Positions 18,255 through 21,082 of a stretch of 64,000 nt of DNA are shown one piece after another. The stretch is from Desulfallas thermosapovorans DSM 6562 (GTDB taxonomy: Bacteria > Bacillota > Desulfotomaculia > Desulfotomaculales > Desulfallaceae), in the NCBI RefSeq assembly GCF_008124625.1, contig NZ_VNHM01000002.1:62001-126000 (forward strand). The letters are read 5' to 3'. How positions within the stretch are numbered: the first letter of the stretch is position 1; every line of letters starts with the position of its first letter. Made by a program: the position numbers and the translations under genes. The notes beneath the pieces are model-generated. The model saw only the letters and a list, made by a program, of their open reading frames with translations. It did no database searches and had not been told where the DNA came from.

Positions 18255-18884
18255 TTAAGCGATGGTAATAGTTTTATACGGTCCTGTGAGCCAATTGTTT
18301 ATTTCGAACATATTGGATATGTTGCCCAGTAAAAGTTTATCTTTAATCCGGTAATATTCCAGACAGGTGCCGCAGGATAGCACGGCGGTGCCCGAGGCGT
18401 GTAGTTTTTCCAGTTGCTCCTGGACGGGGCTGCCCTCACAGGTTAAAAACACCCCGGTATTTAAAAATAACAACGCTGCCGGTGGCGGGGTCATGGCTGC
18501 CAGGGTGGTAAACAAGCTTTTTATCAGTACCTGCCCCAAATCCGGGGACCCCTGTCCCAGCGCGTTGGTGGTGATAAAATAAACCGGTCTGTCAGGGGAC
18601 GCATCCAAAGTGCGGGCGTTGTCCCCGGAGTGATTTGTAGCGGTTTGGCCTGTTGCGGGCGGGGCATCGCCACGGGTTATGGTCAAATAATATGCGCCGT
18701 CTTTTTGTTGTTCGCTCACCCGGCAGCCTGCGTTTTGGGCGAACAACATGACGTTTTGCCGGGCCACATCGTTGTCCACAATGGTGATGATGGTGCCGTC
18801 AGCTGTTTCCTCCAGAGCTTTTTTGGTGTTTATGACCGGGTTCGGACAGGCCAGTCCCCGGCAGTCCACTAATTTAGGGCTCAT
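18255..18884 (-). CDS. yedF: Selenium-metabolism sulfurtransferase-like protein YedF
   Basis: 209 aa. The N-terminal TusA/SirA-like domain has the persulfide motif CRGLACPNPV (Cys at about residue 8); a C-terminal DsrE-like domain carries VYFITTNALGQG and SCGTCLEYY. The two-domain form is typical of YedF, found next to selD in selenium-using bacteria; a role in handling selenium or sulfur for selenophosphate is inferred. ATG 18884 follows AAGGAGGC; the longer open frame upstream lacks homology. It lies 138 bases after selD on the same strand. Confidence 0.92.
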   Translation of the reverse strand: MSPKLVDCRGLACPNPVINTKKALEETADGTIITIVDNDVARQNVMLFAQNAGCRVSEQQKDGAYYLTITRGDAPPATGQTATNHSGDNARTLDASPDRPVYFITTNALGQGSPDLGQVLIKSLFTTLAAMTPPPAALLFLNTGVFLTCEGSPVQEQLEKLHASGTAVLSCGTCLEYYRIKDKLLLGNISNMFEINNWLTGPYKTITIA

Positions 18885-19022: not shown

Positions 19023-20084
19023 CTATAAAGGCCTATCAGGCAGTTTCATGACACTAATCAGTTTTTCCCCGGGCGGCACTACCCGGCCTATCACAGCCGC
19101 TGTTACGCCTCTTTCCACTAGCTCCGCCACCAGCCGGTTCGCTGCCGCTTCCTTTACGGCAATGAGCAATCCGCCCGAGGTTTGGGGATCAAAAAGTATC
19201 ATTTGTTCTTCCGGCCTCAGCGATGTGTCAAGGGCTATTTGATCACCCAGGTGGTTTTTATTGTCGTAGGCGCCTCCCGGTATAATACCCATGCGGGCCA
19301 TCGCCGTTGTTTCCGGCAGCAACGGCACGGCGGAAAAATAAATTTCGAGGCTTACTTTACTGGCCGCGGCCATTTCGGCGGCGTGTCCCAGCAGGCCAAA
19401 TCCGGTGATGTCGGTACAGGCGCTGGCGCGGTTGCGCCGCATGGCCATAGAAGCTTCGCTATTTAATGCGGACATGCATTGTACTGCCTTTTCCACGCTT
19501 GCGGTGGATATCAGGCCGGCTTTGATGGCGGTATTGATAATACCGGTGCCCAGGGGTTTGGTTAATACTAAACAATCTCCGGGCCGGGCGGTGGCGTTGG
19601 AAATAATACCCTCGGGTGCTGCCAGGCCGGTCACCGCCAGCCCGTATTTGGGTTCATCATCGCGGACCGTGTGTCCCCCGGCAATAATACCGCCCGCTTC
19701 CACCACTTTGTCGGCCCCGCCCTTTAAGATTTCCTCCAGTATGGCGGTGTGCAGGCAATCAGGAAAGCATACTATATTTAATGCCAAAAGCGGTTTGCCT
19801 CCCATGGCATAAATATCACTCAGGGCGTTGGCGGCGGCAATTTGGCCGAACAGATAGGGATCATCCACCATGGGGGTGAAGAAATCCACGGTTTGTATTA
19901 AGGCCTGGTGCTCATTCAGGCGGTATACCGCGGCGTCATCCGAAGTGTCAAGCCCCACCAAAAGACCCGGGTCACTGGATACGGGTAAGTGTCGCAGTAC
20001 CTGCGACAGGGTATGCGGCCCTATTTTAGCCGCTCACCCGGGTGTCTTGGCCAGGGCGGTAAGCTTTATCGCGTTATCAGACAT
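19023..20084 (-). CDS. selD: Selenide, water dikinase SelD (selenocysteine-containing)
   Basis: Makes selenophosphate from selenide and ATP for selenocysteine and selenouridine synthesis. The frame opens at ATG 20084 (AAAGGAGG upstream) and contains one in-frame TGA at 20036-20034, codon 17, in the context KTPG-U-AAKIGP. This is exactly where SelD has its catalytic Cys or Sec. With read-through the protein is 353 aa, the family length; without it the normal N terminus is lost. Downstream VGLDTSDDAAVY, AANALSDIYAMGG and GGHTVRDDEPKYG are conserved. A SECIS-like hairpin follows the TGA. Reading the TGA as stop would wrongly give a 312-aa fragment starting at 19961. Confidence 0.95.
19990..20033 (-). 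promoter_or_regulatory. SECIS element of selD
   Basis: After the UGA at 20036-20034, 25 bases lead to a perfect stem TGTCGCAG / CTGCGACA (20008-20001 and 19997-19990). The apical GCAGGTACTGC closely resembles the E. coli fdhF SECIS tip (GCAGGUCUGC). UGA to loop is about 32 bases, within the range known for bacterial SECIS. A smaller GCGGC/GCCGC helix starts directly after the UGA. Confidence 0.85.
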
Positions 20085-20358
20085 AGCCTGTGGGCCTCCT
20101 TTAATATAGCATGCCACCTAACGGGCATAAAATTAACATTATATTCACGGGGCATGTCAGTGGAATATTCTGTTCATATTTAATAAATCCTTTATGGAAA
20201 TGATAAAATAATTTTATAGAACGGGTATCAGCAAAAAAATATGCTTATTTTTAAGTGTGCAGGCTATAAAAAAAATAGTAAAGGTATACATTAAAGATAC
20301 AGGTTATGATAAAATTTGAAGGTAAATTAGTTTAACGATATATAAGGAGGAAATAACA

Positions 20359-20700
20359 TTGCAACCATTTGAAGTTATTATTTTCGGTTTAAATGCTCCC
20401 ACGCCCCATGTTGGCTGAGGCCCCAGGCCCTCCGCAGGTTGCGGATCAGAAAAGACCATGAAACAAGAGGCCGAGGAATTAGGCATTGCCTTAAAAGGGA
20501 GTTTTGGCGACGAAGTTAATGTGAAATTCGTGGATGTTTCCACCGAGGCAGTGAAGGATTATCCCAAAATCGAATCTATTTTACCCCGGGTGCGTTTGCC
20601 CCTTACGGTGATTAACGATGAACCTCGCTTCCACGGTGGCATATCTGCCGAAGTTATTTCGGATGCCTTGCGGGATATGCAGAAAAAACAGAACAATTAA
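20359..20700 (+). CDS. Thioredoxin-fold selenoprotein (YuzD-like), in-frame UGA
   Basis: A 113-aa reading frame is obtained only if TGA 20416-20418 (codon 20) is read as selenocysteine. TTG 20359 lies eight bases after ATAAGGAGG. The N terminus is a beta strand (FEVIIFGL), then VG-U-GPRPSAGCGSEKTM, giving a Sec-x7-Cys pair, then a helix, FVDVST and a probable cis-proline segment RLPLTVIND, an order typical of thioredoxin/YuzD-like proteins. A SECIS-like hairpin begins 12 bases after the TGA. It is divergent from selD. A redox or selenium-handling role is inference; without Sec decoding only an 80-aa piece from 20458 would be called. Confidence 0.85.
20419..20445 (+). promoter_or_regulatory. 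SECIS element of the thioredoxin-like selenoprotein
   Basis: Directly after the TGA, 12 bases lead to the perfect stem TCCGCA / TGCGGA (20431-20436 and 20440-20445) with loop GGT. The UGA-to-loop distance of 18 bases and the GCAGGTTGC tip match bacterial SECIS elements and the selD element of this window. Confidence 0.85.
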
Positions 20701-20797: not shown

Positions 20798-21082
20798 ATG
20801 GCCTGGAAGGACTTGAAAAACAAAGTTAAAAGACAATTTTCAGATTACCTGGAATTACCGGGGGATATTATGCTGGATTTGCCCAAAATCGTGTTAGTGG
20901 GTAACCTGCAGGTATTTATCGAAAATCATCGCGGTATTCAGGAATATAACCCCCACTTGGTGCGGGTGGTGGTCAGCGACAAAGTGATCGAGGTGACCGG
21001 TGAAAACTTGACCCTGCGCAATATTATGCCTGACGAAATATGCGTGGAGGGGCAAATAACCGGCCTTACTTTTCTAAGTTAG
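20798..21082 (+). CDS. yqfC: Sporulation protein YqfC
   Basis: 94-aa YabP/YqfC family protein; in Bacillus it is made in the mother cell under sigma-E. LELPGDIMLDLPKIVLVGNLQVFIENHRGI is the recognisable core (given here as LELPGDIMLDLPKI and the next strand). ATG 20798 is the first start after GAGGAGGG. It is followed 11 bases later by yqfD, the standard pair. Confidence 0.92.
   Translation: MAWKDLKNKVKRQFSDYLELPGDIMLDLPKIVLVGNLQVFIENHRGIQEYNPHLVRVVVSDKVIEVTGENLTLRNIMPDEICVEGQITGLTFLS

Follow-up and report, generated by a model that had tools for sequence, protein, structure and literature searches.

A predicted thioredoxin-fold selenoprotein encoded beside selD in Desulfallas thermosapovorans, with relatives near arsenic-resistance genes

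At one locus of the 64,000-nt stretch of Desulfallas thermosapovorans DSM 6562 DNA analysed here (contig NZ_VNHM01000002.1, positions 62,001 to 126,000; hereafter the window), the standard ORF list offers only an 80-residue frame, 20458–20700, opened by an ATG at 20458. The locus raises the question of whether this is the whole gene or the end of a longer one in which an internal TGA is read as selenocysteine (Sec), and, if the latter, what the longer product may do. The first-pass annotation had described a TTG start with a good ribosome site, a continuous frame broken solely by one TGA, and a gene of which standard callers would report the last 80 residues. The sequence agrees on each point: the TTG at 20359 is preceded by AAGGAGG, and the frame runs to a TAA at 20698–20700 with the TGA as its single interruption. 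The protein would read MQPFEVIIFGLNAPTPHVGUGPRPSAGCGSEKT...LPLTVINDEPRFHGG... (Table 1). The Cys said to follow the Sec by seven residues needs a small correction, as seven residues lie between the two and Cys28 is therefore eight positions after Sec20.

Table 1. Features at and around the locus, in window coordinates
Feature	Position	Strand	Remarks
yedF (TIGR03527)	18255..18884	-	selenium-metabolism sulfurtransferase-like protein
selD	19023..20084	-	divergent neighbour, itself a selenoprotein gene (TGA 20036-20034)
Shine-Dalgarno, AGGAGG-type	20343..20352	+	from sequence; AGGAGG-type site ahead of the aligned start in most homologues
Predicted Trx-fold selenoprotein gene, TTG start	20359..20700	+	113 residues plus TAA
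In-frame TGA, putative Sec20	20416..20418	+	invariant Sec/Cys column of the family
Bacterial SECIS-like hairpin, TCCGCA-GGT-TGCGGA	20431..20445	+	published bSECIS limits; family shuffle test; covariation
TGC, Cys28	20440..20442	+	nearly invariant partner Cys; also within the SECIS 3' arm
Pro81 codon	20599..20601	+	invariant Pro ahead of strand 3, where a Trx fold is expected to have its cis-Pro
yqfC (sporulation)	20798..21082	+	conserved downstream neighbour; functional link not supposed

Homologues were found in 31 of 60 related genomes, with the frame kept and conserved sequence continuing through the TGA. Most of the full-length homologues carry a single in-frame TGA, located at the Sec20 site, and the others have Cys in that column (e.g. 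L023, L026 and L052). In a 42-sequence alignment the invariant columns are F9, P14, Sec/Cys20, P81, P89 and G93. A phylum-wide profile search placed the family in 69 of 399 Bacillota genomes, with Sec and Cys forms mixed, and on a tree of 97 members parsimony counts 17 changes between Sec and Cys, of which branches with good support force at least 11. The TGA is thus in frame, conserved as coding sequence on both flanks and replaced by Cys in homologues, which is the pattern by which a UGA-encoded selenoprotein is recognised, and homologues with Cys or UGA at the site are what the first-pass annotation had named as support. Its contrary outcome, homologues beginning at 20458 with nothing conserved upstream, is not what the alignment contains, since the upstream residues are conserved. 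The same observations weigh on the alternative that the TGA is a true stop and the gene either a pseudogene or the 80-residue ORF, for which an ATG is indeed available. That ATG encodes the internal M of a KTM motif, conservation and Sec/Cys exchange extend upstream of the TGA, and strand 1 of the fold would be absent from the shorter product; we regard a true stop as very improbable. A search of viral contigs found no relatives.

The perfect SECIS-like hairpin proposed in the first-pass annotation is present, starting 12 bases past the TGA, with 6 bp and a GGT loop that lies 18 nt after the TGA, and it falls within the limits of the published bacterial model (loop of 3–9 nt, G in the first two loop positions, spacing of 16–37; PMC13188914). 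Because its stem overlies the codons for SAGCG, it was tested against synonymous-codon shuffles. Taken alone, the window hairpin is not beyond chance, being present in about 28–34% of the shuffles, as the SAGCG codons often yield a hairpin. Across the family it is far beyond chance: under the published loop and spacing limits and a minimum, set by us, of 5 paired positions, at least 3 of them G-C, 51 of 69 Sec members have a hairpin where the shuffles predict 14.2, and 2 of 32 Cys members have one where they predict 4.4, while an earlier version of the test, devised once hairpins had been seen, gave 36 of 53 against 14.0, these rows being related rather than independent and their simulated P values indicative rather than exact. 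Among 15 aligned sequences the 5-bp stem is paired in 100% of cells, and double-sided changes occur at three of the five pairs (e.g. TCCGC/GCGGA to TCCAC/GTGGA, and GGCTGC/GCAGCC). Total folding energy in the window is ordinary (z -0.03 against synonymous shuffles) and does not clearly separate Sec from Cys members (P 0.07), and it was for this lack of discrimination that the hairpin-specific test was used instead. An Rfam search of the locus returned no match.

A host without selA, selB and selC had been named as a finding that would count against a selenoprotein. In the host, selA and selB are adjacent to each other, tRNA-Sec (selC) lies about 18 kb off, and selD is inside the window. Among the 399 Bacillota genomes, selA scores over the cut-off in 63 of the 69 that have the family, compared with 193 of the 330 that do not (Fisher p 2e-8). 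The six family genomes below that cut-off include G227, where selA is split across two contigs, and G380, which has a TGA form and no selA match; G380 was considered as a counter-example to the machinery requirement and dropped, because its selB passes the cut-off and selA is therefore probably missing from the assembly. Four more (G271, G286, G438 and G440) are under both the selA and the selB cut-offs, and their members have no TGA. TGA forms are confined to genomes with Sec machinery. The conserved in-frame TGA, the Sec/Cys exchange, the compensatory changes in the SECIS stem, the full Sec machinery of the host and this confinement together lead us to conclude, on sequence evidence, that the window gene is almost certainly a genuine selenoprotein gene with its UGA decoded as Sec, and that standard annotation truncates it at the internal UGA.

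The AlphaFold model built from the 42-row alignment (pLDDT 83) has thioredoxin (Trx) topology, b-a-b-a-b-b-a, with the invariant Pro81 ahead of strand 3, in agreement with Foldseek and the alignment. On this modelling the window protein very probably adopts a Trx fold, as the first-pass annotation had read from the order of elements; its probable cis-Pro is Pro81, for which the cis geometry itself is an expectation. In the model, confidence is very low over residues 18–28, including Sec20 and Cys28, which fits a mobile loop. The protein departs from a classical thioredoxin in having no CxxC or UxxC at the start of helix 1, and its U-x7-C pair sits on an extended loop. These features bear in both directions on the idea of a general redox selenoprotein, whose Sec20–Cys28 selenenylsulfide would reduce disulfides, peroxides or targets of the Trx system: the Trx fold, Pro81 and the paired chalcogen residues suit it, whereas CxxC-type spacing at helix 1 is not reproduced by a Sec and a Cys that stand eight positions from each other in a loop of predicted disorder.

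For the wider family, arsenic resistance is the most informative genomic setting, and it lies beyond the single-locus view taken earlier. In a sample of 85 other members (80 fetched regions plus L035), ACR3, ArsA or ArsD is found within 4 kb of 25, by hand count from the table, or of 35 when ArsP-type permeases are included; chance would give one or two such members, on a rough estimate that puts about six of these genes in a 3 Mb genome. The arsenic gene is often next on the same strand, 2–60 nt away. Canonical ArsD stands alongside a family member in five loci, indicating that the family member is not simply ArsD. Neither arsenic nor selenium neighbours were recognised around 43 of the 85, and the arsenic label is scattered across the tree (17 changes), which suggests that the association has been gained or lost many times. 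If the proteins were general reductants, the arsenic and selenium contexts would reflect a demand for thiol reductants at those places, and it fits that MTH895/ArsE-type thioredoxins adjoin some members and that some 'other' members have a thioredoxin-reductase-like gene nearby. The frequency of arsenic operons among members weighs against it, as do the extra vicinal Cys residues of many members (GCCCG, CSCGG), which resemble those of metalloid binders. We consider general redox activity a serious rival, if an unlikely one.

Several loci of the wider family have features of their own. Six arsenic clusters (L102, L119, L164, L166, L167 and L174) contain GcvH-like lipoyl and lipoamide-dehydrogenase-like genes, in places with lipoate-ligase-like, OsmC-like and DGC-domain genes, which suggests a lipoyl-linked arsenic system. 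The member in L035 (1402-1737, minus strand) contains a pair of adjacent TGA codons (AGCSUUGPPKAAGC), with a 6–7 bp SECIS-like hairpin after them, and is possibly a double-Sec protein. Two Sec-containing subgroups (L140, L143, L145, L146, L149 and L157; L151, L155, L159 and L161) have long perfect SECIS-like hairpins, of up to 13 bp, in conserved non-arsenic settings, with neighbours that by eye are queuosine-type genes, and 5-oxoprolinase-type and two-component genes.

The divergent position beside selD and yedF, already remarked on in the first-pass annotation, is conserved in 13 genomes of two families (f1 and f18), some of these loci being too short to display every neighbour gene. The selD-linked members form one clade (support 100/96). 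The window selD, whose start the ORF caller places at 19961, has a perfect 8-bp hairpin (TGTCGCAG-GTA-CTGCGACA) 25 nt past its own TGA. The opposite flank, yqfC-yqfD-phoH, is conserved as well in the selD-linked loci. Among the congeners, G001 (L058/L185) and G004 (L186) keep only broken remnants of the selD-adjacent gene, a frameshifted pseudogene included, and in G002 (L183) and G003 (L182) no trace of it was found between selD and yqfC. All four retain an intact Sec-type selD and yedF and have paralogues elsewhere in the genome, so that the gene is not essential for selenium use or selenoprotein synthesis. In two other congeners, G005 and G006, there is a second selD of Sec type at another genomic location.

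As the selD adjacency is limited to one clade and the other flank is conserved too, it could be no more than inherited gene order, with the window copy an arsenic protein like its paralogues in arsenic operons; the loss of the gene where selD was kept is in line with this. Set against it are the recognised neighbours at the orthologous loci, which are selD-yedF and yqfC-yqfD-phoH and not arsenic genes, the maintenance of the adjacency across two families, and the separate occurrence of yedF near four further members outside the selD-linked clade. An arsenic protein with a passively inherited position is possible, though we find it doubtful.

On balance, and with modest confidence, we favour a Trx-fold selenoprotein that carries a metalloid on the mobile loop bearing Sec20 and Cys28, with reduced selenium as the leading candidate in the selD-linked clade. 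The Sec/Cys (or Cys/Cys) pair would reversibly bind or reduce a soft metalloid and hand it to a partner, by analogy with ArsD, which uses vicinal Cys residues to carry As(III) to ArsA. Members in arsenic operons would serve arsenite efflux or methylation, and the copy in the selD-linked clade would be specialised, its most likely task being to handle reduced selenium close to SelD and YedF, with a selenol that may give higher affinity and reactivity. What the settings share is metalloid chemistry together with a soft-ligand loop on a Trx fold, as in ArsD, and from this we infer that the family is probably linked to metalloid handling; selenium as the substrate of the selD-linked clade is put forward tentatively. 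Counting against this interpretation are the conserved opposite flank, the loss of the gene in four congeners, the 43 members around which neither arsenic nor selenium genes were recognised, and the weak ArsD likeness of the window's own subfamily. The role suggested in the first-pass annotation, a redox partner in selenium delivery or an antioxidant, is plausible. A more specific version, in which an ArsD-like selenoprotein carrier acts as a dedicated selenium chaperone, passing reduced selenium on to SelD or receiving it from YedF, appears to us a good deal less likely.

Should the favoured explanation hold, it would bring in a selenoprotein family that seems to be missing from the catalogues and of which some genomes have several members, tie Sec to arsenic-resistance operons and supply a concrete candidate for the route of selenium to SelD in vivo, which is incompletely elucidated (PMC13188914). 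Of the 119 families of prokaryotic selenoproteins tabulated in the 2026 catalogue (PMC13188914), none is entered as DUF1462- or ArsD-related, entries without a model having been compared by table description, and the 2022 selenoprotein list (PMC9312934) has no such entry either; the new selenium genes of PMC5322559 include no Trx-like candidate. Literature searches, with subscription papers outside their coverage, returned no paper joining a selenoprotein with YuzD, none of use on arsenic operons, selenocysteine and ArsD, and nothing relevant on DUF1462 and selenium.

Small Trx-fold selenoproteins are already represented by SaoT (NF040730), HUIPC (NF047660) and Sec.1/Sec.2 (PF13192). The window protein differs from the Trx-like selenoproteins of PMC13188914 in the motif and placement of its Sec, and also from what PMC5330540 describes, where the Trx domain is extended at its 5' side and the Sec/Cys residue sits in that extension. 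No Pfam or NCBIfam family matches it over its cut-off, and NCBIfam gives no match up to E 1. VcpD, an ArsD-related vicinal cysteine protein (NF047871), matches 12 of 42 close members weakly (best E 8.8e-6); it was rejected as the family's identity, since the genome matches cover just the first half and reach 17–20 bits where the cut-off is 90, and the window protein is unmatched.

DUF1462/YuzD (PF07315) is a distant relative. The S. aureus DUF1462 protein 1xg8 is the best Foldseek match, with a modest score, and the best PDB match by profile (profile A2, E 7.6e-5); in profile searches DUF1462 matches 7 of 26 wide-family members. The PF07315 cut-off is passed by some distant members, among them proteins with CSSU or GGU, and one of those passing also reaches 25.2 with ArsD, for which the cut-off is 27. 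The window protein shares with DUF1462 the Trx-like fold, a chalcogen pair (Cys pair in DUF1462) after strand 1 and a similar strand 3 bearing the conserved Pro; it differs in not matching PF07315, in its longer loop (U-x7-C versus CxxC) and in its Sec, which canonical YuzD does not have. Its similarity to DUF1462, with no match over any cut-off, places it as a DUF1462-related Trx-fold protein outside current family borders. Two members, in L193 and L191, are over the Pfam DUF1462 cut-off and have an in-frame TGA (CSSU; CRSGGU), so that Sec may occur in DUF1462 proper too.

With ArsD (PF06953, NF033727) the window protein shares a small Trx fold in which strand 1 leads into a mobile loop bearing Cys, followed by CG. 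The ArsD structures 3ktb, 3kgk and 3mwh are also among the Foldseek matches, with modest scores, and the likeness extends to the arsenic-operon context of the paralogues and to the wide-family profile (hhalign 74%, E 2.7e-5), while for the window's own subfamily it is weak (hhalign 5.5%). The window protein matches neither PF06953 nor NF033727 and does not have the vicinal Cys-Cys plus third Cys; its ligand residues are differently spaced, with a single U in place of the vicinal pair. It is ArsD-like in architecture, yet not an ArsD.
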